Origin: a virus
Reading direction: 5' to 3' (one strand)
Length of the DNA: 28,928 bases
Virus record (IMG/VR): IMGVR_UViG_3300049825_000647
Span: 1 to 28,928 of that record
Shown: in pieces, positions 6,166 to 28,644 of the stretch
Layout: every line of letters starts with the position of its first letter
Numbering within the stretch: position 1 is the first letter of the stretch
Notes under the pieces: model-generated
Told to the model about the DNA's origin: nothing
Database searches by the model: none
Seen by the model: the letters and a program-made list of their open reading frames with translations, nothing else
Made by a program: the position numbers and the translations under genes

Positions 6166-6887
6166 GCTGGTATATACCTGTTTGTGCCAGCATCATCAAT
6201 CTTAATCCACTTAGTCGGATTGCCCGCAGCAGGGGCGTTAAGGAGCGTTCCAGCTGCTGCGGCTGCACCATCAGTTAATGCTGTATTAGCTTTTAACAAT
6301 GTCGCACCTCCTTGAAGTGTAGCCAAACCTGTTAGTGTGAGAGTTGTTCCGCTCAAAGCAGTCCCTGCGATGGTTGTTGCGGTAATTCCGCCTGAGAGCG
6401 TCAATGTAGTCCCATTAATTGTCGTTGTTGTGGTTCCACCTGACAAAGTCAAGACTGTTCCACCTATTGTCGTCGCCGTAAGTCCGCCTGATAATGTAAG
6501 TGTAGTCCCGGTAAGCGCGGCCCCGGTCAAGGCACCAGATAGGTTCAGTGTTGTTCCTGTAATAGCTGCTGCGGAGATATTACCAGTGAGGGTAAGTGTT
6601 GTCCCCGACATAGTTATGCAACTGAAACCGCCCGACAATGTAAGGGAAGTTCCAGTCGCCACGCCAAGCGCAGGAGTTACAAGCACTGGCGAATCAATTG
6701 TCGGGCCCGTTTGCCGCACAAAATCGCCCGTCCCACTAGAACCCCCGCCCGAAGCGCCTGTGCCAGAAAGAAATTGCGCTACGTCCAAAAACCATTTAAG
6801 CCAGATCGGGTTAAAAGTAGACTGCCCGGTTACCTCGTCCACAATGACAGGCGAAGCGTGCGTAGGCGGCGGTTGGAATTGAGCCAT
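6159..6887 (-). CDS. Repeat-containing tail fibre-like protein
   Basis: The 242-residue protein has three parts. Residues 1-40 (containing TFNPIWLKWFLDVAQF) form a helical attachment segment seen at the head of many short phage fibre-like proteins. Residues 80-175 are six consecutive 16-residue repeats of the type TTLTLSGGxTATTIxG, which should form a slender beta structure. The C-terminal KWIKIDDAGTNRYIPAW motif is a conserved end seen in many phage proteins. The gene starts immediately at the end of the gp10-like gene (both share base 6887) and overlaps the zinc-ribbon gene downstream. A fibre or needle-like part of the short tail is the likely role. The Ser/Thr-rich repeats carry no enzymatic residues. 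Confidence 0.75.
   Translation of the reverse strand: MAQFQPPPTHASPVIVDEVTGQSTFNPIWLKWFLDVAQFLSGTGASGGGSSGTGDFVRQTGPTIDSPVLVTPALGVATGTSLTLSGGFSCITMSGTTLTLTGNISAAAITGTTLNLSGALTGAALTGTTLTLSGGLTATTIGGTVLTLSGGTTTTTINGTTLTLSGGITATTIAGTALSGTTLTLTGLATLQGGATLLKANTALTDGAAAAAGTLLNAPAAGNPTKWIKIDDAGTNRYIPAW
6363..6650 (-). repeat. Six in-frame 48-bp repeats coding 16-residue beta units
   Basis: Within the fibre-like gene, residues 80-175 divide into six units of exactly 16 residues, each starting T(T/S/V)LTLSG or a close variant and ending in G. The DNA copies are diverged, so this is an old protein repeat rather than a recent DNA expansion. Unit number could change by recombination and so alter fibre length. 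Confidence 0.75.
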
Positions 6888-8290
6888 TACAAAGTCCCTA
6901 GGTCAAGTTGCAATTCAGTATCCGTTAGTCGCAAGCGTGTATCGCTGGCGTGCCGGATATGCGTAGCTCGACGAATGAAGGAACCACAATTATCAAGGTG
7001 CGGTTTCTGCATTCCCATATCCACTGTCCGGAAATCTGTCCATTTATCCACAGCATAATCATTATCATTAAAACGAACCTGAAGTATACTTCCAGCTGTC
7101 TGATCCCCAATGAAAGCGAGGTCGCTAAGCGTCTTGCTCCGGTAGACCCCTCCATCAAAGTTAGGTGTGTAAAGATCAACCACAATCGGATTACCTGCAT
7201 CATTAGTGTAGCGAGAATCTACGATATACAAGCGTCCGTTAGTCTCATGCTGGAGCAATAACCCTACGCCCATTTTAAAAGTCGCCGCGACATAGGGCCA
7301 ATAGTTCCCATTATGGTCTGTCCATTGTGCCCAAAGTTTTTCGCTCGAATCGTAAACTAAAGTTATATTGGCATTCTTCAATGTAATAACATAGAAGCGA
7401 TGCCCTTCGTAACGGAATGCAAAAGAGTAAACGTTTGTAGATACATCAACTTCTCCAAATAAACGATCCACTGCCTTAGTCGATACTGTAGTTGCTTTCA
7501 GCGCATCCATTTGCATGACCTGTGGAGCAGCAGAACGATTAGAGGAGACCCAGAACAGCGAACCCTCTAACTCTTGCACTGAATTTGAATTCGCGCAGCC
7601 ATAGCTTATCTTAGCTCCCTGCACTGGAGCAAGAGGACTTCCAGCCGCATTCAATGCGTCGTAGAACACTTCTGTGGACCATTCTTTAAACATGATGAGA
7701 TAGACTAACTGCTTCGCCAAGGCAACCCCTGCGTCAGGTTCTATTTGTGCCGAAACCGTATTAGTTACGTCTGTCCAATCATTTGGATCTTCTAAATTTG
7801 TTGAGCCTCGAATGTTCGCTGCAGAATTCCCGACATACATTGTTCCATCAAGGTAAACTATTCCTTTAACTGTAGGAGAAGGGAAATTAGCTCCTGCAAT
7901 GGCTGCGATTGCTCCAGCTTCCGTAATCGAATAAGTATTCGTTCCGTTGCCCATTACCAGGTAAGCTGGTGATACACGAGTAGAAGAGAAATAATACTGT
8001 CCGGCAGAGACATTACTGATGAACACCCCGTCCTTATAAAAACTAGTTCCCCAGATTGTATAGACAGAACCCTTCCAGTTAAACGCACCGTAGCCATTTC
8101 CACTTAAAGCAGATCCATACGCAAGCAATCCAGGTCGCTTGAACAGTTTATACCCACCGGTCATCTGGTCCTTTTCCAGATACCCATTAATTAATCGAGC
8201 ATCCTTATCAGGAAATTCCGAACGATTATCCGGCTGCAGTGCCAGTGGCAACCGCTTCGGCAGTCCGACGGTATCAGCTTGCTGCGCCAT
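6887..8290 (-). CDS. P22 gp10-like packaged-DNA stabilisation / tail hub protein
   Basis: The 467-residue length is close to that of P22 gp10 (about 470 residues), and the start contains the family signature PDNRSEFPDKDARLINGYLE, followed by a long beta-rich body with many WT, YV and FY pairs, as in a beta-propeller-like hub. In P22 gp10 closes the portal channel after packaging and joins the gp4 ring to the needle and tailspikes. The upstream neighbour is a gp4-like protein and the downstream neighbours are fibre-like, which is the expected order. Start and stop touch both neighbours (shared bases at 8290 and 6887). This is a firm family assignment by pattern, with detailed function by analogy. 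Confidence 0.8.
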   Translation of the reverse strand: MAQQADTVGLPKRLPLALQPDNRSEFPDKDARLINGYLEKDQMTGGYKLFKRPGLLAYGSALSGNGYGAFNWKGSVYTIWGTSFYKDGVFISNVSAGQYYFSSTRVSPAYLVMGNGTNTYSITEAGAIAAIAGANFPSPTVKGIVYLDGTMYVGNSAANIRGSTNLEDPNDWTDVTNTVSAQIEPDAGVALAKQLVYLIMFKEWSTEVFYDALNAAGSPLAPVQGAKISYGCANSNSVQELEGSLFWVSSNRSAAPQVMQMDALKATTVSTKAVDRLFGEVDVSTNVYSFAFRYEGHRFYVITLKNANITLVYDSSEKLWAQWTDHNGNYWPYVAATFKMGVGLLLQHETNGRLYIVDSRYTNDAGNPIVVDLYTPNFDGGVYRSKTLSDLAFIGDQTAGSILQVRFNDNDYAVDKWTDFRTVDMGMQKPHLDNCGSFIRRATHIRHASDTRLRLTDTELQLDLGTL

Positions 8291-18420: not shown

Positions 18421-18653
18421 TCTTCCAGCTCCGTTACAAGTTGTTCATAAGTCAGGTCCATCGCAAAGGCGTAGCCCTTGCAGGTGCCCAGGTTTCCTAC
18501 GTTGACGAGGACAGTGGTGTCTTTCTCATAATCTGTGAAAGCGCCGCCTTCCCAGTCTTGCCGCAGTTCTTCGCGCTTCTTACCCAGGCACTGCATGAGC
18601 GCCTTGGTCACAGGATGTATCAGCCATTCCTTGAATTCTTCTTCAGTTACCAT
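18417..18653 (-). CDS. 78-aa conserved phage protein downstream of portal
   Basis: The small acidic protein begins with TEEEFKEWLIHPVTKALMQCL (helical), then has DWEGGAFTDYEKDTTVLVNVGNLGTCKGYAFAMDL and ends in an acidic helix. I have seen this pattern (EWxxHPVT near the start, then LGxCxGY) in small proteins encoded next to portal genes in many phages; the function is unknown. Its start overlaps the portal end by 11 bases, and its stop overlaps the GroES-like start. Confidence 0.7.
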   Translation of the reverse strand: MVTEEEFKEWLIHPVTKALMQCLGKKREELRQDWEGGAFTDYEKDTTVLVNVGNLGTCKGYAFAMDLTYEQLVTELEE

Positions 18654-20715
18654 TTGCAGCCGCCTTTTTTGCCGCGAGCTCTTTCAGACGCAAATCGTGA
18701 TCTGCCTGAATCTCAGCGGCTTTGAGTAAGGTTTGAACGCGAGAGACGATGTGCTCGTTAGCGCCCTTGAGTTGAGAAATCTGTGCGTTGACCAATGCGA
18801 CTTGGGCGTAGGCCTGCTCGCTCTGGGCGTTGGCGGCTGCTTCCTCTGCCTTTGCCATGAGTTCGAGAATTTTGGCGTTGTTGAGCCGACGCTCTTCAAG
18901 GAGGCTGATGGCGAATTCTTGCTGCTTAGCTTGCAGTTCCATAGCAGCGAGTTGCATATCAGCCTGGAGCTGTGCCGCATCGGTCTGTGCCTTGATCTGC
19001 GCAGTTTGCACACGCGGATCGGGCGGAGGCGGCTGGTTGGCCCCGCCCTTGAATAGTTCTTCAGGCTTCTCAACACGGAGCGCCCGAAGGAAACGAAGCT
19101 CCACTGCGTCCTTATCGTAACCGGGGGTAGACATAGCGGCAGACTTCAGCGCTACAGCTTGCTGAATTTTCATGGAGTCGCTGATCATATTCGGGTCAGC
19201 GACCGGGCAGACTTCATCGACCGGAGACTCGTAATCCTTAAGAGTCGCTCCGCCGGGAAAAGTGCGATCCTCGGGAAGGTAGATAGAGTTAAGTGTGTAG
19301 AGACGGCGAAATTCCTCGGCGGACCCGCGCCAAATGCGCTTGAATATGGCCGTGTAGACCTTCTGCCCCATCTCAACCATCGTTTGCATCGTGGAGGCGG
19401 GGGTGTTTTGCCCCGGATTCTCCCCGACTGTCGTGTCAGTAGTGCCCGCGACCCGGCTGGTGTAATTGATGAGAAGGCTGAGGAGCTGGAAGAGCACATC
19501 GGAGGGGGCATTGACCGGGAGCTGCACAATATTCTTGCGCAGATCATCCCCGGCTGCATCAACTCGCTTCCACTCGAAGGGGCTGAAATTCATTGTGCCA
19601 CTGCGGATTTTTGCCCCGCGCCCGAGGAAGCCCCCGGAAGTGGTCTGCAACGTCCCACTGTCGATAAGCATGTTAACGAGGGAGTTAACGGCCTCGTTGA
19701 GCGGACCGAGGAAAAGGCCGAAGCCCATTCCGTAGACCCCGCCGTCGGGGGAAGGGATAAAAATCTTCGGGGAAAAATATTCCGTTGGGGTGATCTTGAT
19801 TATCTTACCCTTGTCCTTGCCCGAGGCAACCCGTTCAATGGAAGAAGTCCGATCAAAGCGCGTGACAATGCGGACGACACGCTTTGAAGAGGCCTCAACA
19901 GTGATAACGTAAGGCTCGTCGTAATTGTCATCGTCCAGATCTAAATTTACATGCTGCTCGTAGAAGAGAATAGAAGTCGCAGCGTCAGGTTGGCTCTGTA
20001 TCATCCCCTTCCGACGGTCTGCCTCGGCTGTGCCAGGAAGGGTCTTCGGACGGGAAGGGTCCTGAAACCAAGGCTCCTCGAGGACATTCTCGTAGATCCC
20101 GCGCATCACTCGCTCGTAGACAGTGTTACGGGAAAGCCAAATCCGGTGGGTCTTCCGTGGGCTGTCGGTGACGGACTTAGACCAGTAATTCATCACAAGG
20201 TCTTTGGAGAGGACTAGCCCGCTGACGTTATGGGTCTTGCTGTCGGAGTAATAGACCTTCTTAAAATTCGAACCGACGATGGGAAGGTTGAGGAGAGCAA
20301 CATCCTCCTGTGCCTCCCATTCCAAGTCCTGGTGCAAAAGCTGCCAACTCATATGACGGGAAATTCGGTCAGCACGAGCCGGATCTTGAGCATAGGCGCA
20401 CTTGACCAAGTTTGGCCCATCGACGATGGCAGGATAGGCACGGGCATGAAACTGCAAAGCAGCGATCGTGACGAGCGGAAAAGCAACGTTGGAACAGTTT
20501 GGCCAGGGAAAGGACTTGTCCTTGGTTAGCTGCAGCGCTAAGTCCATCCCGGCCTCGTTCCGGCGGAGCCAGGATGCGCGGGAGGCCTCGTCGTCTTCAT
20601 AACCCTCTGCGACATGCTCGCCGATAGTGATCAGGTCCTCCTTCGTGAAACGCGAGCAGAGGTTTGGCGAACGGATCGCTGCGTCGGCGAGGGAGAGGGG
20701 AGAGAGGAGTTTCAT
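18643..20715 (-). CDS. Portal protein (P22 gp1-like)
   Basis: The 690-residue length is close to P22 gp1 (725). The start contains helices and the typical motif SFPWPNCSNVAFPLVT (residues about 68-83), then LQFHARAYPAIV. The central body holds portal-like strands and a conserved SPDGGVYGMGFGLFLGPLNEAVNSLVN region. From about residue 560 to the end it becomes a long Gln/Ala/Glu-rich helix, like the C-terminal barrel of P22-type portals. The dodecameric portal forms the DNA entry and exit channel and docks with the terminase and the gp4-like ring. The gene starts one base after the large terminase stop (TGAGATG). Assignment is firm. Confidence 0.88.
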   Translation of the reverse strand: MKLLSPLSLADAAIRSPNLCSRFTKEDLITIGEHVAEGYEDDEASRASWLRRNEAGMDLALQLTKDKSFPWPNCSNVAFPLVTIAALQFHARAYPAIVDGPNLVKCAYAQDPARADRISRHMSWQLLHQDLEWEAQEDVALLNLPIVGSNFKKVYYSDSKTHNVSGLVLSKDLVMNYWSKSVTDSPRKTHRIWLSRNTVYERVMRGIYENVLEEPWFQDPSRPKTLPGTAEADRRKGMIQSQPDAATSILFYEQHVNLDLDDDNYDEPYVITVEASSKRVVRIVTRFDRTSSIERVASGKDKGKIIKITPTEYFSPKIFIPSPDGGVYGMGFGLFLGPLNEAVNSLVNMLIDSGTLQTTSGGFLGRGAKIRSGTMNFSPFEWKRVDAAGDDLRKNIVQLPVNAPSDVLFQLLSLLINYTSRVAGTTDTTVGENPGQNTPASTMQTMVEMGQKVYTAIFKRIWRGSAEEFRRLYTLNSIYLPEDRTFPGGATLKDYESPVDEVCPVADPNMISDSMKIQQAVALKSAAMSTPGYDKDAVELRFLRALRVEKPEELFKGGANQPPPPDPRVQTAQIKAQTDAAQLQADMQLAAMELQAKQQEFAISLLEERRLNNAKILELMAKAEEAAANAQSEQAYAQVALVNAQISQLKGANEHIVSRVQTLLKAAEIQADHDLRLKELAAKKAAANGN

Positions 20716-20716
20716 C

Positions 20717-22282
20717 TCAATACCCGGTCACGGTCGAACGGCCCTGGGCCGACGAGGCCTTCCGCTGATTCCAGAAGCCCTCCTCAAGGTCCCGACGATC
20801 CTGGTCGTAGAAGTCCTCTTCTTCAACCGTGGAATATTGCTCGATTCCGAGGACGAGGGTCGCAGCACTGTCAAACTGATCGTCGAGACGAGCGGCAGCG
20901 AGACCGGTGAAACGGAGCTGCTCTTCTTTCGCGCCCTCATACCCGTCGGCCTTGACGTCCCAGCGAGTATGCCCGGCCCGGTGGCGTTTCTTCAGTGGAA
21001 TGCCGCGGGTCGCTTTGTCCTTGATCGGGTTGAGAACGTGGATGTTGAGCCAGCGGCCCCTGCGCTGCATTTCGACATAGACAGTGTTCTGGACGGCGTT
21101 CCAGATAACTCCACCCTCAACGAAATGGGTCCGCGGGTGCCAGCGTTCCTCCACCTCAAACATCAGGTCCATCCAACCGAACTTACCTTCTTCCTTCTCC
21201 TGCGGGCTAACAGTGGGATTCCAACGGCCAGCGCCAAATGCCAGGAAATGGGTAAGGTTCTGGGCGCAAACCCCGCCGACTGTGTAGGCCGTTCGGTTTG
21301 CTGCGTCGGCCTTGCTGACCGCGAAGTCCCAGCCTACGTCGAGGATCTTATCGGCCTCGTGATCCTCCTCGGACATGGGAAGGTAGTCCTGCCGCCGAAG
21401 GTAGGACTCTGCGTTATCCTGGGGATCGTTGAGAAATTCCTGCGAGTAACCCGCTGCATCTGCGTCTTCGATGAACTCCTGCTGGCGCGCCCGCAGCTGC
21501 TCCTCGGTCCAACGCTCGGGCCAGAGGATGTTCGTGAAATCGTCAAAGCCGGCGTGGGCCTTGAAATAAAGATGCTTCCAGATCTTCTCCTTCCCGCACT
21601 GGGGGCAAGGCCCTTTCGTAATGTCCTGCGTCCGTTTGTGGCAAGTCGGGCAGTTGATCAAGCGGGAAAGGAGACTGTCCTCATGCAGAATCGTTCCGTG
21701 AACGCGGATACGGCCTTGCTTGCTGAGCGCTTGCTTCGCCGCGCGGAAGAACCATCGGCGGAACTTCGCCCGGCGGTCCGCATTTTCAACCTGCTCGTCA
21801 TCTTCCATATCATCTGCAATGATAAGGTTGGGGCGCTTGCCTTTCCAGAGGCGCCCCCGGATGCGTTGCTCAGCGCCCTTCGCGATAATGCGGAAGCGGT
21901 GGCCGTCATTCATCTCTACGATTATATCGACAGCAGAGGATTTGATAAACTTCTTTATCCCGAACTCGCGAATGATGTCGTCATTCTCGGTCAGTTCCTC
22001 TGAGATATTCCCAAGCTGCTCAGAGGCGCCTTCCTCGGTGGAGCTGATGAGGATGATGTAGTCCGAGCGGCGAAAGAGGGACTCCGCGAGGATTACATCG
22101 GTGGTCAGTCCGGTCGACTTCGCATGGTCCCGCGGAGCGACGCAGACGACTGCGGGCGCGTCGCTGGCGTAGAGTGCCCACGCAGTCCGGTGGAAGGGAG
22201 GCGTGGGCTTGGGAGAGTCATACCGCGGGCTGACAAAAGTCCCCGCGAAAGACTCAATGAGATCGGCAGTGAGTTGGATCAT
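20717..22282 (-). CDS. Large terminase subunit (packaging ATPase and nuclease) with zinc-ribbon insert
   Basis: The 521-residue protein has Walker A-like APRDHAKST at 49-57, Walker B NLIIADDMED at 152-161, and a coupling motif HGTIL at 195-199. The C-terminal RNase H-like nuclease is marked by GWDFAVSKAD (317-326, with the first metal-binding Asp), a middle acidic FVEGG, and LDDQFDSA near the end. Unusually, CPTC at 211-214 and CPQC at 226-229 form a zinc ribbon between the ATPase and nuclease domains. The enzyme cuts concatemeric DNA and drives it through the portal. Its start overlaps the 104-aa upstream gene as ATGA. The antisense strand holds a long open frame over much of the gene, which is a codon-bias shadow. 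Confidence 0.92.
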   Translation of the reverse strand: MIQLTADLIESFAGTFVSPRYDSPKPTPPFHRTAWALYASDAPAVVCVAPRDHAKSTGLTTDVILAESLFRRSDYIILISSTEEGASEQLGNISEELTENDDIIREFGIKKFIKSSAVDIIVEMNDGHRFRIIAKGAEQRIRGRLWKGKRPNLIIADDMEDDEQVENADRRAKFRRWFFRAAKQALSKQGRIRVHGTILHEDSLLSRLINCPTCHKRTQDITKGPCPQCGKEKIWKHLYFKAHAGFDDFTNILWPERWTEEQLRARQQEFIEDADAAGYSQEFLNDPQDNAESYLRRQDYLPMSEEDHEADKILDVGWDFAVSKADAANRTAYTVGGVCAQNLTHFLAFGAGRWNPTVSPQEKEEGKFGWMDLMFEVEERWHPRTHFVEGGVIWNAVQNTVYVEMQRRGRWLNIHVLNPIKDKATRGIPLKKRHRAGHTRWDVKADGYEGAKEEQLRFTGLAAARLDDQFDSAATLVLGIEQYSTVEEEDFYDQDRRDLEEGFWNQRKASSAQGRSTVTGY

Positions 22283-24612: not shown

Positions 24613-24623
24613 GGAGTCTCAAA
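24613..24623 (+). promoter_or_regulatory. GGAGTCTCA translation leader (copy 1)
   Basis: GGAGTCTCA followed by AA stands immediately before the ATG at 24624. It decides the start of the 50-aa gene over earlier in-frame codons. Identical copies precede three other rightward genes. Confidence 0.7.
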
Positions 24624-24776
24624 ATGAACGCTTGGTACCTGGTGATTGACGGGACAACAGGCAGGCATATCGGCGGGGTGCGGGCACCCTCGGTAAAATC
24701 TGCAACGTATTGGTCGCGCCGGTTTTTTGGCTGGCGTCGTTTCTCTACTGTAATATTTGTCAGCAAGTGTAAATAA
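24624..24776 (+). CDS. 50-aa basic protein of unknown function
   Basis: The start is set by the GGAGTCTCA leader. The peptide (MNAWYLVIDGTTGRHIGGVR at the head) is rich in Trp, Arg, Phe and Val: an N-terminal strand pair, then a basic aromatic stretch (SRRFFGWRRFSTVIF) that could contact nucleic acid or membrane. It is the first gene in the rightward direction. The next tiny frame starts one base after its stop. No family is recognised. Confidence 0.55.
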   Translation: MNAWYLVIDGTTGRHIGGVRAPSVKSATYWSRRFFGWRRFSTVIFVSKCK

Positions 24777-24777
24777 A

Positions 24778-24843
24778 ATGGACACAGACAACGATACGGG
24801 CGATTTACCGTTTGACGTGGCAGGCTGGCTGGATAGACAATAA
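24778..24843 (+). CDS. Possible 21-aa acidic micro-ORF
   Basis: ATG follows the previous TAA by one base (TAAAATG). The peptide MDTDNDTGDLPFDVAGWLDRQ is strongly acidic and ends before a gap with two inverted repeats. It has no Shine-Dalgarno of its own, so it would depend on coupling. It may be a chance frame. Confidence 0.3.
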   Translation: MDTDNDTGDLPFDVAGWLDRQ

Positions 24844-24861
24844 CGCGGGAACTTCACACAA

Positions 24862-24892
24862 TGGACATTGTCCAAACAGTGCCCATGATGGG
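24862..24892. promoter_or_regulatory. Two adjacent short inverted repeats upstream of 124-aa gene
   Basis: TGGACATTGTCCA (24862-24874) is a 13-base inverted repeat with a single central base, and CCCATGATGGG (24882-24892) is a second one eight bases later. Both lie between the micro-ORF and the 124-aa gene. They could be protein-binding sites or weak RNA hairpins. Confidence 0.35.
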
Positions 24893-24919
24893 AATGGTCC
24901 CGAAGGGCTGGATAACATA

Positions 24920-24930
24920 GGAGTCTCAAA
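24920..24930 (+). promoter_or_regulatory. GGAGTCTCA translation leader (copy 2)
   Basis: GGAGTCTCA plus AA precedes the ATG at 24931, identical to copy 1 through the first four coding bases (ATGA). Confidence 0.75.
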
Positions 24931-25305
24931 ATGAAATTATCGATAGAAGGGAAGAAAATTGTATTCACGTTTGAAGGCTGCACGTCACTTGTGTTCGATC
25001 GAGAGCAGGTGACAAATGCCGAGGCAATTGATGCAGCGGTTATGCTCGGATTCTCGAATAAACTGCGCGATTGCGCAGCGCTTGAGCGGAAAGATAAAGC
25101 AGGCAATGTAGTTAATGTCACGGAACAAATGCGCAGGGATGCAGTAGCGCCAATGGTGGAGCATTTTCACTCGGGAGGCGGTTGGACTGTGAAGAGGATA
25201 GCTGCCCAGAATGCGACAATTGTCGCGATTGCAGCCAAGCTTGGGATTACGTATTCAGAGGCAGAGGCCAAGGTCGCGGAGCAGATGTTGGCGGGACTTG
25301 CGTAG
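24931..25305 (+). CDS. 124-aa protein of unknown function
   Basis: The start is fixed by the GGAGTCTCA leader. The first about 30 residues form strands (KLSIEGKKIVFTFEGCTSLVF); the rest is mostly helical, with AEAIDAAVMLGFSNKLRDCAALERK, a TEQMRRDAVAPMVEHFHSGG segment (about 64-83), and a C-terminal helix-turn-helix-like stretch ATIVAIAAKLGITYSEAEAKVAEQML (about 95-120). The tail might bind DNA, but the match to a true helix-turn-helix is weak. Similar short phage early proteins exist without assigned function. A low-complexity gene-free region follows. Confidence 0.65.
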   Translation: MKLSIEGKKIVFTFEGCTSLVFDREQVTNAEAIDAAVMLGFSNKLRDCAALERKDKAGNVVNVTEQMRRDAVAPMVEHFHSGGGWTVKRIAAQNATIVAIAAKLGITYSEAEAKVAEQMLAGLA

Positions 25306-25700
25306 TCAGCGGGAAAGGGGCATCCGGTTGCAGAGATTGGATACCCCGTTTTGGGGTAACTGGGAATGAGGACTACCACCACCACCACCACAACCACATG
25401 GGTTAGGATGTATAAATGGGGCGGGCAGTTATTTTCTCCTGCTCTCTCTCTCTTCTCAGCAGTAGTATCTATCCAATATATTTTTTTTAGACTGTAATGG
25501 ATGAATGGATTAGAGAGAGATGGATGAGCGGAGAGAGAAGGAATGGGATGGACAAGGTAACTGGGAGGGATAGGGAATGGGGTGTGGGCGTGATGTGGTG
25601 GTGGTGGTGGTGGTGGTGCGACGCGGATTACTCCGGGAACCATACAGCGGGCATGGTGTCGAATGGGGGTATGCAGGGATTGTAGACGGATTAACTGACA
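25306..25700. repeat. Gene-free low-complexity region with complementary trinucleotide runs
   Basis: I see no credible gene in these 395 bases. They contain an ACC run (five units, 25375-25389, with decayed ACs to 25398), a CT run (25441-25453), a T8 tract (25481-25488), two ATGGATGA copies (25497 and 25520), GAGAGA tracts, a direct repeat GGTAACTGGGA (near 25354 and 25555), and a TGG run of seven units (25596-25616). The ACC and TGG runs and the CT and GA runs are mutually complementary, so the strand could fold into a long imperfect hairpin centred near 25490. Frames here encode only homopolymer-like peptides. Confidence 0.6.
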
Positions 25701-26120
25701 ATGGAGAGAAACGTGGCGACAATTGAGTTATTCATTGAAGCAACGCGGGGCTGGTGTCTGAAGGCACAACGGATCTGGCCAGCATTTAAACTGCCGAGGA
25801 TTGAGATCGTTGAGGGGCTAGGTTCAACAGCAGGCATGGTGCATTATGATGGAAGGATTAGATTGAATAAGTTTTACTGCCTTGCGAATCCAGAAGGGAT
25901 GCTAGAAAACACGATACCGCACGAAGTATCGCACTTGCTCGCGTATTCGATACATAGCAGGCAGGGGCAGGGGCATGGGAAACTGTGGACGGATACTTTC
26001 CTTCTGCTTAAACCCGGCGCAGATATAACTCCATGTCACAATTACGGTAATGTCGAGGCAGCGAAGCAGAAAATACAGTCTGTCGCAGATCAGATGCTGA
26101 AGGAATTGTTGAGTAAATAG
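25701..26120 (+). CDS. SprT-like zinc metallopeptidase
   Basis: The 139-residue protein has the metal-binding helix HEVSHLLAY with H74, E75 and H78 (HExxH) and a third ligand candidate in GQGHGKLW (H92), the layout of SprT-like proteases, where the third His follows within about 20 residues. The upstream MVHYDGRIRLNKFYC (46-60) matches the conserved strand that precedes the helix in the family. SprT/Spartan proteins cleave DNA-bound proteins; phage copies may remove host proteins from DNA or process phage proteins, which is not known. The ATG at 25701 has only a weak Shine-Dalgarno, while GTG at 25713 has GGAGAG before it and could be the true start. Confidence 0.8.
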   Translation: MERNVATIELFIEATRGWCLKAQRIWPAFKLPRIEIVEGLGSTAGMVHYDGRIRLNKFYCLANPEGMLENTIPHEVSHLLAYSIHSRQGQGHGKLWTDTFLLLKPGADITPCHNYGNVEAAKQKIQSVADQMLKELLSK

Positions 26121-26262
26121 ACCGTTAGATCGTCCACACCCGGCACAGCCCCCCAGTGCGCCGTAGGCGTGAGACCGTTGAGCGGAGTCTGGAACAGCTG
26201 CTGGAGAAAGTGGGATTCCCTCGAGTCCCCTTTCACGGCATAGGGCCGATAAGGAGCAAACG

Positions 26263-26430
26263 ATGGAATCAATTGTAGGGATACTTATGCGCAGAGATAA
26301 GCTTTCACGGGCCGAGGCACAGGAAATGATTGCTGCGGCACGGGAGGAAGTGGCACAAGGTCGTGATCCAGAGGAAGTGCTGCTGGAGGACTTCGGCCTT
26401 GAACCGGACTGGGTGATAGATCTCCTATGA
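26263..26430 (+). CDS. 55-aa helical acidic phage protein
   Basis: An AAGGAG seven bases before the ATG gives a strong start. The peptide has MRRDKLSRAEAQEMIAAAREEV (residues about 9-30), then an acidic helix and the ending FGLEPDWVIDLL. I recognise this pattern (MRRDxxSxxEA ... FGLEPDYxxxLL) as a common small phage protein of unknown function. Its stop overlaps the start of the helix-turn-helix gene as ATGA, so the two are made together and may act together. Confidence 0.75.
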   Translation: MESIVGILMRRDKLSRAEAQEMIAAAREEVAQGRDPEEVLLEDFGLEPDWVIDLL

Positions 26431-26744
26431 GCAAGCCCATCCTCAATCCTGAGATCATTCAGCGCCTCCGAGAGATGGAGCTCTCAGGGACGCTGAATAC
26501 AAAAGAGGCCGCCCGGCTCTACGGAGTCGGGACGGAGACAATCCGGCGGGCAGTCCGGGGAGATACATGGAGAGTCATCCGCGTATCCGCTTCCCCGGCG
26601 CAGCTTGAGGCCGAGGCAGCAGCATCGGTGAGGAAGCTCGAGGAGCTCATCGCGCTTGAACAAAAGCGCAGAGCGATTCCCGAGCAGATTCTCACCGAGC
26701 TCGAAGGCGCCGATGTGGCGAAGAAACGTGGGTATCTTGACTAG
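26427..26744 (+). CDS. 105-aa helix-turn-helix DNA-binding protein
   Basis: Residues about 20-45 (GTLNTKEAARLYGVGTETIRRAVRG) form a classic helix-turn-helix of the kind that reads an operator or origin. The second half is Ala/Glu-rich and helical (dimerisation) with a basic end. It is tied to the 55-aa gene by ATGA overlap. It is a candidate regulator for the dyad at 24449-24484 or for the repeats in 25306-25700, though nothing in the sequence proves the link. Confidence 0.7.
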   Translation: MSKPILNPEIIQRLREMELSGTLNTKEAARLYGVGTETIRRAVRGDTWRVIRVSASPAQLEAEAAASVRKLEELIALEQKRRAIPEQILTELEGADVAKKRGYLD

Positions 26745-26750
26745 GAGAAA

Positions 26751-26954
26751 ATGATGGCAAGGCATAAATACTTTTGTTCCGGGCAAGCGTATGAAAATGG
26801 CGTAGCAAGACGCATTTTCGCGACGGTAGTTATTTCTCAATTTACCGCAGACTCCCCTACGTTTTTGGAAAGTCTCGAAAAAGCTTGTCGAGACAAATTG
26901 ACAGTTCCGCCCGGGCAGGTTATCTGCTTCACTTGTGTCAGTAAATTAACCTAA
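26751..26954 (+). CDS. 67-aa protein of unknown function
   Basis: The start ATGATG has GGAG four bases upstream; either ATG could be used. The peptide is mixed strand and helix with three Cys (YFCSG, ACRDK, ICFTC) and the segment FATVVISQFTADSPTFLESLEKACRDKL. The gene lies six bases after the helix-turn-helix gene and is followed by the next leader. No family is recognised. Confidence 0.6.
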   Translation: MMARHKYFCSGQAYENGVARRIFATVVISQFTADSPTFLESLEKACRDKLTVPPGQVICFTCVSKLT

Positions 26955-26964
26955 GGAGTCCAAA
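26955..26964 (+). promoter_or_regulatory. GGAGTCCA translation leader (variant)
   Basis: GGAGTCCA plus AA precedes the ATG at 26965. It differs from the GGAGTCTCA form by loss of one base, with the same ATGAA coding start as copy 2. Confidence 0.6.
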
Positions 26965-27132
26965 ATGAAAGCAATTCGCGCAGTGTGGCATCTGCTGTGG
27001 CACGGAGTGACTGAAGAGAAATTTCGCAATGAACAGCTTTGGGCCGCTCTCGATCATGCGGAGCAGCAGGTTGCACTCTGGACAGTCCGGGCGGAGCAGC
27101 GAGAATCTGCACTCCGTCGGGCCGGAGAATAA
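26965..27132 (+). CDS. 55-aa helical protein of unknown function
   Basis: The start follows the variant leader. The peptide is helical with a basic and aromatic head (MKAIRAVWHLLWHGVTEEKF) and a Gln/Glu/Arg-rich coil (LWAALDHAEQQVALWTVRAEQ). The frame was checked codon by codon to TAA. It lies one base before the next gene. No family is recognised. Confidence 0.6.
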   Translation: MKAIRAVWHLLWHGVTEEKFRNEQLWAALDHAEQQVALWTVRAEQRESALRRAGE

Positions 27133-27133
27133 C

Positions 27134-27289
27134 ATGACTAAGGACCAATGGCTCAGAAATCGACTCGTGGCGAAGTACTGGTGCGATAGGATGCGGGAGA
27201 TACTCCAGCGCAGCGGTAGCAGCCGTTCACGAATTGAGGAACCGCGGCAGCTTTCGCTCAAACTTGTCATCCCGAGGGAGGAGAAGTAA
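27134..27289 (+). CDS. 51-aa basic protein of unknown function
   Basis: The start is ATG at 27134 with CGGAG nine bases upstream inside the end of the previous gene. The peptide (MTKDQWLRNRLVAKYWCDRM at the head) is helical and basic, with a Ser/Arg linker and a strand-like end (QLSLKLVIPREEK). Close packing with both neighbours supports it as part of a co-translated small-gene string. Confidence 0.55.
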   Translation: MTKDQWLRNRLVAKYWCDRMREILQRSGSSRSRIEEPRQLSLKLVIPREEK

Positions 27290-27290
27290 A

Positions 27291-27401
27291 ATGGACCTCC
27301 TCACCGAAGCTCTCGTCTTCCTCGTTTTCCTCGCTGGTATCTTCACAGTCCTAGGACTCTTCGGCGTAGCTTGGGAATGGTGGAAAGGGCGTAGGAAATA
27401 A
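27291..27401 (+). CDS. 36-aa single-span membrane peptide
   Basis: A strong GGAGG lies before the ATG, and the gene starts one base after the previous stop. The peptide has a short acidic head (MDLLTEA), one hydrophobic helix (about residues 8-29, Leu/Val/Phe/Gly-rich) and a Trp plus basic tail (WEWWKGRRK), typical of an inner-membrane miniprotein with the tail in the cytoplasm. Such phage peptides may block superinfection or alter membrane proteins; no specific role can be read. Confidence 0.6.
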   Translation: MDLLTEALVFLVFLAGIFTVLGLFGVAWEWWKGRRK

Positions 27402-27465
27402 TTTCATTTACTCGGGAACCCATACGCGGCCCGACGGTCAAACATGGGTATTGCCCGACATCACA

Positions 27466-27476
27466 GGAGTCTCACC
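27466..27476 (+). promoter_or_regulatory. GGAGTCTCA translation leader (copy 3)
   Basis: GGAGTCTCA plus CC precedes the ATG at 27477 and selects this start over an in-frame ATG 33 bases earlier. Just upstream, ACCCAT (27418) and ATGGGT (27444) form an inverted pair, and GCCCGAC occurs twice. Confidence 0.75.
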
Positions 27477-27683
27477 ATGCCACAAAAACGCATCTGCAAA
27501 TATCCTCCTCCCTCCCGAGTCTGGGAGCAAACTGAATCCGGCCGATGGGCTTCCCGCGACTGGCGCCCAGGAAAGTCAGCATGGGGAAGGAAATTGGAAC
27601 TATCCGAGAAAGAAATCTACGCCAAGGAAGTCCTTGGGCAGGAACCTATGCATGAAGTGACGATTATTGAGGCGAATAGCTGA
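27477..27683 (+). CDS. 68-aa protein of unknown function
   Basis: The start is set by leader copy 3. The N-terminal half is basic and Trp/Pro/Arg-rich (CKYPPPSRVWEQTESGRWA, then SRDWRPGKSAWGR), which looks like a small nucleic-acid or protein-binding module; the C-terminal half is an acidic helix and strand (ELSEKEIYAKEVLGQEP). It stands alone with 75 and 96 base gaps on either side. No family is recognised. Confidence 0.6.
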   Translation: MPQKRICKYPPPSRVWEQTESGRWASRDWRPGKSAWGRKLELSEKEIYAKEVLGQEPMHEVTIIEANS

Positions 27684-27694
27684 GAGCCTAGCCG

Positions 27695-27731
27695 TAAGGG
27701 ACTCACCTCCCTTATGAGTGGACTCTCCACT
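27695..27731 (+). promoter_or_regulatory. Two tandem perfect hairpins in a leader region
   Basis: TAAGGGA / TCCCTTA (7 bp, 6-base loop, 27695-27714) is followed three bases later by AGTGGA / TCCACT (6 bp, 3-base loop, 27717-27731). There is no T-tract, so they are not clear intrinsic terminators. They lie in the 96-base gap before the 236-aa gene and could be a 5' UTR structure or RNA-processing sites. CCGTAAGGG is echoed by CCGTAAAGGGG further on. Confidence 0.45.
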
Positions 27732-27779
27732 AAACGGAATAAGTACCCGCCGTAAAGGGGCACGCTTAGGAGATTTACA

Positions 27780-28490
27780 ATGGCTGAAGAAGCAACCAAT
27801 GGAGCAGCAGCTCCGACGAAGAAGCAGACGGAGTACACCACCGTCGCTATGACCGATGGGCGCAGTGTCCAATTCGCTGGCAAGCGCAAGATGATGAAAA
27901 CGACCTTGCTGGATGACAGCAAGATTACCGTCGAAGGAGATATTGCCCAGCTCGAAAAGGGCGCGGTCAGTGTACGTTTTGACTTCGTCAACGGCGAAAC
28001 TCGGACAGTCGCGCTGCCCGCCTCCCTCCTGGCTCGTTTCGCGGGCCACGGTGCGGAACAGAAATACGGTGACGAACTAGCCTCCCCCGCCGACAAACCG
28101 ATGTCTGTTGAAGATATGGTTATGGCTATCGAGGAACTTGATGGCCAGATCCAAAAGGGCGAATGGGGCAAGGGCCGTGCTGAAGGTGGCGGCGGAATCG
28201 CCGGAGCATCCCTCGTCGTGCAGGCGCTGATCGAAGTAACCACGCCTGCCCGCGCAGCCGCAGGAAAGCCCCCCATGACCGTGGCCGAAGTGAAAGCCTA
28301 CCTGGACAAGATGCTGGAGGACTCGAAAGTCCGCGATGGCGCAAATGCGCTGACCCGCCGGGCAATCTACGATTCCTTCCGCAATCCCCAGACCAAGACC
28401 GGCGCAGTTATCAAGCGCTTGGAGGATGATAAGCTGGCCAAGACCTCCAAGGTGGATGCAGATGCTGCGGTCAGTGCAATGCTGGCGTAA
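27780..28490 (+). CDS. 236-aa conserved phage protein of unknown function
   Basis: The start has AGGAG eight bases upstream. After a flexible head, residues about 20-80 form strands with KRKMMKTTLLDD, VRFDFVNGETRTVALPASLLARFAGHGAEQKYGDE (about 65-99). A helical region MVMAIEELDGQIQKGEWGKGRAEGGG follows (about 113-138), then a second helical domain and a Lys/Ala/Asp-rich tail. I recognise the pattern (FxNGExRxxxxPxSLLxxFAxHGAEQKxGDE ... LxKGEW) as a widespread phage protein, often near replication or early genes, with no established function; binding to DNA is a common guess. A structured element and a terminator follow, so it may close this transcription unit. Confidence 0.75.
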   Translation: MAEEATNGAAAPTKKQTEYTTVAMTDGRSVQFAGKRKMMKTTLLDDSKITVEGDIAQLEKGAVSVRFDFVNGETRTVALPASLLARFAGHGAEQKYGDELASPADKPMSVEDMVMAIEELDGQIQKGEWGKGRAEGGGGIAGASLVVQALIEVTTPARAAAGKPPMTVAEVKAYLDKMLEDSKVRDGANALTRRAIYDSFRNPQTKTGAVIKRLEDDKLAKTSKVDADAAVSAMLA

Positions 28491-28500
28491 TCCGGCATCC

Positions 28501-28571
28501 GCCTTAACGAGAGAAGAGCATTCGACGCAATTCTTCTTAAACGATCTGCGATAAAGGTGTCTCGTTAAGGC
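28501..28571 (+). ncRNA. Structured element with 12-bp closing stem (candidate RNA)
   Basis: GCCTTAACGAGA (28501-28512) pairs perfectly with TCTCGTTAAGGC (28560-28571). Inside, GAAGA (28513-28517) pairs with TCTTC (28532-28536) and ATT with AAT continue that inner stem after a 2-base bulge, giving a branched fold with a free stretch at 28537-28559. It lies ten bases after the 236-aa gene stop and ten bases before an intrinsic terminator. It might be a small 3' RNA, an RNA-stability element or a DNA site. No known RNA family is recognised. Confidence 0.4.
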
Positions 28572-28580
28572 CCTCCCACC

Positions 28581-28603
28581 AAGCCCGCCGTGTGCGGGCT
28601 TTT
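28581..28603 (+). terminator. Intrinsic (rho-independent) terminator
   Basis: AAGCCCGC and GCGGGCTT form a perfect 8-bp GC-rich stem with the loop CGTGT, followed by further T residues. This is a standard intrinsic terminator for the rightward unit ending with the 236-aa gene; the T-tract is short (four in total) but the stem is strong. Confidence 0.8.
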
Positions 28604-28633
28604 CCGCTGAGGCATCCCGCCTCCCCTTCCAAA

Positions 28634-28644
28634 GGAGTCTCACA
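28634..28644 (+). promoter_or_regulatory. GGAGTCTCA translation leader (copy 4)
   Basis: GGAGTCTCA plus CA precedes a GTG start at 28645. The fixed spacing to the start codon, as in the other copies, is the main argument for the GTG being the true start. Confidence 0.7.

Follow-up and report, generated by a model that had tools for sequence, protein, structure and literature searches.

A short leader shared by early genes of a tailed-phage fragment, a likely target of a phage-encoded antisense RNA

The stretch of viral DNA considered here, IMG/VR virus record IMGVR_UViG_3300049825_000647 (28,928 bases in full, hereafter the window), is regarded as an incomplete tailed-phage genome, since its relatives reach 43–49 kb. 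Leftward genes fill its left 24 kb, including those for a terminase (20717–22282), a portal protein (18643–20715) and a head closure protein (6887–8290), and small rightward genes occupy the right 4.7 kb; the latter are called early, a label that rests on their position only. Several of these early genes share a leader, GGAGTCTCA, which on the grounds of sequence complementarity in related phages is likely to serve a small, phage-encoded antisense RNA as a target site that overlaps the Shine-Dalgarno (SD) sequence. The elements concerned are the following (ORF, open reading frame):

24613–24621, + strand: leader GGAGTCTCA, 2 nucleotides before ATG 24624 (50-residue ORF, 24624–24773)
24920–24928, + strand: leader GGAGTCTCA, 2 nucleotides before ATG 24931 (124-residue gene, 24931–25305)
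26955–26962, + strand: degenerate leader GGAGTCCA, one base shorter, before ATG 26965 and reading GGAGTCCA-AA-ATG
27466–27474, + strand: leader GGAGTCTCA, 2 nucleotides before ATG 27477 (68-residue ORF, 27477–27683)
27780–28490, + strand: 236-residue gene, orthologs of which mark the place of the candidate RNA hairpin in relatives
28501–28571, + strand: 12-bp stem (28501–28512 with 28560–28571) at the site of the relatives' putative antisense hairpin; its loop mismatches the leaders
28581–28603, + strand: terminator-like stem with a T-run, 3' of the preceding stem, judged from sequence and fold
28634–28642, + strand: leader GGAGTCTCA, 2 nucleotides before GTG 28645, the start of a gene that extends past the window end

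As an earlier note on the window had claimed, the leaders at 24613, 24920, 27466 and 28634 are identical and each ends two bases before a start codon; these four are the only exact copies, all on the + strand and none on the − strand, whereas 100 dinucleotide shuffles gave, on both strands together, a mean of 0.23 copies, two at most and never four. The variant leader reported at 26955 is likewise present as GGAGTCCA, and the remark that leftward genes do without the leader holds for all 33 hand-listed leftward ORFs, the closest sequences being GGAGTCCTCCGC before 17841 and GGAGTTTACT before 3689. Plain SD sequences precede other rightward ORFs (26263, 26751, 27291 and 27780).

A terminase search yielded 64 related viral loci, designated by G or L numbers. 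When starts were counted in 54 of these loci plus the window, a start being any ATG, GTG or TTG with 35 open codons rather than a called gene, and near-copies such as L014/L015 being counted twice, GGAG[T/G]CTCA stood before 30 of the 577 GGAG-bearing starts on the early strand, before none of 626 on the late strand and before none of 295 on the strand opposite the early genes. The sequence GGAGTCTCA itself is present in 11 of 50 records searched whole, and sets of GGAGTCTCA leaders are found only in G001 (L004) and G004 (L007, with the same stretch in L008), which have two and four exact copies, respectively, each 2 nucleotides from its start, besides near-variants; other relatives use GGAGGCTCA. 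The leader is borne by the 24931 gene, among others, and in L193 also by ORFs of 486 and 302 residues; a comparable leader, alike by position, lies before the small ORF preceding the 24931 ortholog in G004 (69 residues) and L161 (72 residues). Across relatives, the final A of the leader is kept while its first base is free (G in 25, A in 17, C in 13, T in 12), and the spacing to the start is narrow, 2–3 nucleotides in 46 of 76 cases.

A plain, lineage-specific SD preference with favourable spacing, in which TCTCA is a mere spacer, would account for the GGAG core, which is a normal SD sequence, and for the spacing, which is also normal. However, TCTCA is unable to extend pairing with the 16S tail (generally known as GAUCACCUCCUUA), and the motif is used at early and not at late starts. 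Moreover, in the leaders of some 24931 orthologs (AAAGAGGCTCACC and GGGGGCTCACC) CTCA is retained despite a decayed SD core, while the motif has gone from others (AGGAGGTTAGT and AAAGGGAATATC); CCGAGGCTCACTC is a further example of a leader with CTCA and a decayed core. Since CTCA is kept where GGAG has decayed, the leader, judged by its conservation, is more than an SD sequence, as the earlier note had suspected of its TCTCA part, and the spacer explanation, which also leaves the covariation described below unaccounted for, is very unlikely. The suggestion that the leaders mark duplicated expression cassettes is not supported: when six window ORFs (the four with exact leaders, 26965 and 27780) were compared by BLASTP at E 0.01 with one another and with the ORFs that bear leaders in G007 and L161, only orthologs between genomes emerged, and no two proteins were alike within a genome.

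The candidate partner of the leader lies 3' of the 27780–28490 ortholog in relatives. Two further scans with this protein gave 62 loci and the best 80 of 111 loci, and 97 distinct loci were analysed. Within 400 nucleotides 3' of the ortholog, TGAG[A/C/T]CTC is found in 44 of the 97 loci (with C in 39, T in 3 and A in 2), against 3 of 97 for the reversed-word control CTC[A/C/T]GAGT at the same place. This anti-motif sits mostly in a hairpin loop, the stem of which varies between genomes: the stem at the anti-motif beats 95% of other positions in 38 of the 44 genomes, and 33 different arms occur among 42. The loop sequence TGAGCCTC is frequent after the ortholog in relatives with GAGGCTCA leaders, and TGAGACTCC lies in the hairpin loops of G001 and G004, the two relatives with GGAGTCTCA leader sets; together with the other pairs found in other lineages, this supports, at the level of sequence, the earlier note's idea of a small RNA pairing with the leader. 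The first T of the loop is kept, and the base after TGAGCCTC varies (C, G, T or A). In G001 the hairpin is located about 0.6 kb after the ortholog, and in L151, L167 and L181 it is found 0.5–1.4 kb after it. MW202489.1, the only member of the searched phage collection with a relative of the 27780–28490 protein, has GGATTAGTCTCC in the loop of a hairpin and a GGAGACTAA leader after it.

Loop and leader change together. Six pairs are recognised, namely (loop/leader) TGAGACTCC/GGAGTCTCA in the window's lineage, TGAGCCTC/GAGGCTCA, TGAGTCTCC/GGAGACTCA, TGAGCACTCC/GGAGTGCTCA, TGGGTCTCC/GGAGACCCA and GTAGCCTCC/GGAGGCTAC. The earlier note had asked whether TCTCA is enriched at starts and whether it varies freely in relatives; it is enriched, and although lineages differ in it, these differences mostly follow the loop. 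When every 8-mer of the post-gene stretch was compared with the starts of the same locus in the 97 loci, start codons being counted, the top words were AGCACTCC at 11 starts (L161), TGAGCCTC at 7 (L133), GGGTCTCC at 6 (L193), GAGTCTCC at 5 (L178), TGAGACTC/GAGACTCC at 4/5 (L166) and TAGCCTCC at 4 (L173), a count in which unrelated words reach up to 7, such as CGGCGGCT in L133. A test with loops chosen by stem and by CTC in the loop, blind to the leaders, in 74 genomes (81 loops less 7 near-copies) gave 111 matches to leaders of the own genome, against 46.6 ± 7.1 and a maximum of 68 in 2000 permutations between genomes; for 9-nucleotide matches the figures were 48 against 13.1, with a maximum of 31. 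The table of loop class against leader motif is nearly diagonal: the leaders GAGGCTCA, GAGTCTCA and GAGACTCA number 76, 7 and 11 in the 36 TGAGCCTC genomes, 0, 6 and 0 in the two TGAGACTC genomes, and 1, 0 and 6 in the three TGAGTCTC genomes (Fisher tests on these non-independent genomes give p 3e-6 for the comparison of C with A loops and 1e-4 for that of C with T loops).

Orthologous leaders, counted without near-copies, follow the same trend, and their shift together with a loop of the phage itself tends to speak against the host regulator that the earlier note had also considered. Those of gene 24931 match their own loop over 9–10 nucleotides and the loops of other classes over 4–6 in L161, L166, L178, L193 and L206, and those of gene 28645 match over at least 8 nucleotides in 19 of 26 TGAGCCTC genomes as well as in L166, L161 and L193; the score of 3 for gene 28645 in L206 arose from a different start used by the script, the actual ATG having GGAGTCTCGCC. 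The loop base preceding TGAG and the leader base following CTCA combine as C-G in 4 of 5 cases, T-A in 28 of 58 and A-T in 4 of 13. Predicted duplexes of the exact window leaders reach −16.6 to −21.9 kcal/mol with TGAGACTCC loops and about −10 with a TGAGCCTCC loop, the degenerate 26955 leader is predicted to pair more weakly with the G001 and G004 loops (−11.6/−11.7), and, among the loops tried, the best predicted pairing of every tested motif leader is with the loop of its own lineage. A tree of the 27780–28490 protein, which neighbours the hairpin, requires two changes for the A class and one for the T class; CA, TGGGTC and GTAGCC stand on single rows, and the window's protein clusters with that of L206, an A-class genome (support 89/91). 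Because of these class changes, the apparent loop/leader code is one that has been rewritten several times, long branches leaving the exact counts unsure.

Binding of a phage protein to a near-palindromic DNA operator, TGAGNCTCA, present at the leaders and in one inverted copy 3' of the 27780 gene, would in part predict the same picture: GAG-N-CTC is palindromic, so that the commonest class would look identical, a change in protein specificity would also shift all sites together, and the central mismatches of 7 and 11 leaders in the TGAGCCTC genomes would be tolerated. However, the conservation is one-sided, the last A of the leader and the first T of the loop being kept while the first base of the leader and the last of the loop are free, whereas the half-sites of a palindromic operator would be equally conserved. 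Furthermore, the non-palindromic pairs, written leader first, GGAGACCCA/TGGGTCTCC, GGAGGCTAC/GTAGCCTCC and GGAGTGCTCA/TGAGCACTCC remain reverse complements, the inverted copy is mostly in a hairpin loop, and the distance from leader to start is narrow. The non-palindromic loops, that is, those outside the TGAGNCTC type, were tried in 21 genomes, a match being a GGAG leader with at least four further bases. In L161, 11 of 41 GGAG leaders match (0.31 expected) and in L193 5 of 38 (0.07), loops picked after the leader match so that the expectation is too low; with loops picked by hairpin, 3 of 37 match in L173 (0.07), 3 of 26 in L186 (0.14) and 3 of 42 in L243 (0.32), and five more genomes have one matching leader. 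Owing to the one-sided conservation, the non-palindromic classes and the hairpin context, pairing between RNAs is favoured, and a DNA operator is unlikely. Early genes might instead be exchangeable by recombination at conserved boundary sequences, as has reportedly been proposed for the nin genes of lambdoid phages, and a leader common to unrelated genes would fit this; nevertheless, it leaves unexplained why an inverted copy lies in a hairpin loop and why this copy changes in a coordinated way, and such a role for the leaders is extremely improbable.

According to the antisense reading, the RNA would be the hairpin 3' of the 27780–28490 ortholog, and its loop (TGAGACTCC in the window's lineage) would match, over 8–10 complementary nucleotides, leaders at several unlinked early genes; about half of these hairpins are followed by a terminator-like stem. 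Covering GGAG and the five nucleotides after it, the loop would hide the ribosome-binding site and hinder binding of the 30S subunit, so that pairing would lower translation of the early genes, most likely for their shut-off or for dosage control. Whether such an RNA would act in trans bears on another explanation, in which the hairpin, by pairing within its own transcript with the leader of the next gene, controls that gene alone. This is in keeping with the single matching leader of several distant genomes, with MW202489, where the match is that of the next gene, and with folds of single regions, which pair the loop with the next leader in some genomes. By contrast, in G004, G007, L161 and L193 four to nine leaders with a start match the loop over a span of 5–8 kb, some of them upstream of the hairpin. 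By complementarity, then, several potential targets lie away from the RNA gene, and control in cis only is quite unlikely.

Several observations weigh against the antisense reading. The anti-motif is missing from its usual place in just over half of the 97 loci, and L161, L185 and L230 miss the hairpin-context threshold even at 90%. Terminator-like stems were found 3' of only 22 of 42 hairpins in a simple scan, and the folding energies of five single hairpins resemble those of shuffles (z +0.35 to −1.48). RNAalifold on a MAFFT alignment of 21 hairpins returned no base pair, because MAFFT leaves the variable stems unaligned. The 36 TGAGCCTC genomes form 28 clusters at 90% identity, which makes the permutations and Fisher tests too generous, and in the commonest class the odd palindrome TGAGNCTCA renders leader and loop trivially alike. 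The 7 GAGTCTCA and 11 GAGACTCA leaders in TGAGCCTC genomes are unpaired at the centre; the gene 24931 leader matches over at least 8 nucleotides in only 11 of 24 TGAGCCTC genomes and falls below this in 13, and in L186 and L243 it matches its own loop over 3 and 5 nucleotides; 11 of the 21 genomes with non-palindromic loops have no matching leader. In a prediction test on 11 genomes, L151, L167 and L181, with GAGGCTCA leaders and no hairpin at the usual place, had a TGAGCCTC hairpin further on, as predicted, and L136 agreed, although its prediction was made after the hairpin had been seen. L134 and L158 disagreed, having a TGAGCCTC hairpin and leaders of the types GAGACTCA (one) and GAGTGCTCA (two); L143 showed a variant, TGAGCCCC; the sequences of L135 and L157 stop 0.76 and 0.67 kb past the gene, and no prediction could be drawn from L159 and L163. 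The exceptions that weigh most are L134 and L158, the 18 centre-mismatched leaders and the 13 orthologous leaders, out of 24, that fall short of 8 nucleotides.

A further point against it is that the antisense RNA is not found in the window, which is a fragment; a stretch complementary to the ribosome-binding site region of phage mRNAs is seen in the relatives only. There is no exact TGAGACTC on the window's + strand, and the nine places with one mismatch there are confined to the leftward genes, left of 19.3 kb; between 28491 and 28633 no 7-mer is complementary to more than two early starts. The expected site is occupied by the other 12-bp stem (28501–28571) and the terminator-like stem, and folds better than 199 of 200 shuffles. 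Because the hairpin lies 0.5–1.4 kb after the gene in G001, L151, L167 and L181, that of the window phage may sit beyond the fragment end; equally, it may have been lost. An exact 27-mer from near the window end matched no viral contig, in a search that may omit very near records.

Regarding the gene that marks the hairpin, the 27780–28490 protein has no PHROG family and no Pfam family at cut-off. The idea of an RNA chaperone found no backing in its AlphaFold2 model (predicted local distance difference test score 89.8), for which Foldseek gave no match at E ≤ 0.001 and VIA-align a best Z of 3.8. By eye, an HG...GD pattern is visible in both this protein and that of 24931–25305, which BLASTP at E 0.01 does not pair. 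Elsewhere among the early genes, an SprT-like gene lies at 25701–26120 (PF10263, E 1e-11), and a long inverted repeat of CCA/TGG triplets at 25372–25399 and 25593–25618 (25-nucleotide arms, 96% complementary, 193 nucleotides between them) encloses CT-rich and GA-rich tracts. In L110, a contig assigned by binning to the Rhodocyclaceae carries a terminase relative (66%), which hints weakly at betaproteobacterial hosts.

The nearest published systems are the start-associated sequence (SAS) of cluster K mycobacteriophages and the C4 RNA of phages P1 and P7. In the sections of the reports that describe it, the SAS is a short asymmetric repeat that contains an SD sequence and lies a few nucleotides before the starts of non-structural genes, nearly always in one orientation, conserved beyond possible 16S pairing and with a role that is not known (PMC3203893, PMC12699233, PMC11373665), a role still called unknown in the relevant section of a 2024 report (PMC11373665); one inverted copy is mentioned for K1 genomes in the corresponding part of another (PMC3203893). 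Like the SAS, the leaders are directly upstream of starts, in a single orientation and outside structural genes. Unlike it, GGAGTCTCA is not within two mismatches of the SAS consensus GGGATAGGAGCCC when the letters are compared; the SAS belongs to another host phylum, and no homology was seen between the two. The inverted SAS copies of Anaya (L257:34871) and Adephagia (L258:33683) lie in the loop of a strong hairpin, which in Adephagia is located between its genes 92 and 93, and over the stretches compared this loop position holds for 7 of 12, those two included. On the + strand, SAS hairpins occur in 4 of 12 genomes scanned (Anaya, Adephagia, Kratio and Fionnbharth); that of Kratio is similar, with a different 14-bp stem, and lies at the left end within an annotated small gene. 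Against such a parallel, the SAS change predicted from the differing loop of Ekdilam and Amohnition is absent, Yuna, SirPhilip and Marshawn retain the SAS though the loop is gone, and Pixie, Unicorn and Aminay have no + strand hairpin. The SAS hairpin parallel is a lead. The total of cluster K hairpins (19 against 4.9 in controls, maximum 14) does not count as evidence, its minus-strand sites being, with the exception of Aminay 37158, the SAS on the other strand. One SAS of Yuna (L298, record 59831–59843) is itself presented by a 13-bp hairpin, in its loop.

The C4 antisense RNA, as outlined in the part of the source that deals with it, acts on the ant mRNA, where complementary stretches, probably in loops, pair around the ribosome-binding site and block translation (PMC12197685). 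The candidate RNA would resemble it in being encoded by a phage and complementary to a ribosome-binding site region, and would differ from C4, as far as that outline goes, in that one loop matches the leaders of several unlinked genes. Rfam covariance models at gathering score gave no family for the hairpin and no match to the C4 family in eight sources (124,658 bases, six sources with a hairpin); only the int-alpA RNA was found (RF02996, 37.4 bits), directly 3' of the 27780 ortholog in G001, at L071:8808–8873 (−). It is distinct from the putative antisense hairpin, located further downstream in G001. Bacterial trans-encoded small RNAs also expose an anti-SD loop seed complementary to the SD regions of several mRNAs, as host regulators of host genes. 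In contrast, the present case would apparently comprise a phage RNA, phage targets and a dedicated site. No RNA of this kind was found described in the open-licence PubMed Central literature on phage small RNAs combined with SD, antisense or early genes.

Antisense RNAs of phages are familiar chiefly as single-target switches, whereas the sequences considered here suggest one RNA with a regulon of early genes. It is possible, if doubtful, that across a large group of mostly uncultured phages a single self-encoded antisense RNA acts as master translational switch of the early genes, its loop and leaders having been rewritten together at least five times (six classes), and that the cluster K SAS represents the same device, arisen independently. 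With many sites evolving in concert, such a recognition code would amount to a natural series of compensatory mutants, and it would supply loop/leader pairs of different specificity as well as a concrete hypothesis for the SAS. If true, this would be an RNA-level answer to the question of how such phages limit early expression.

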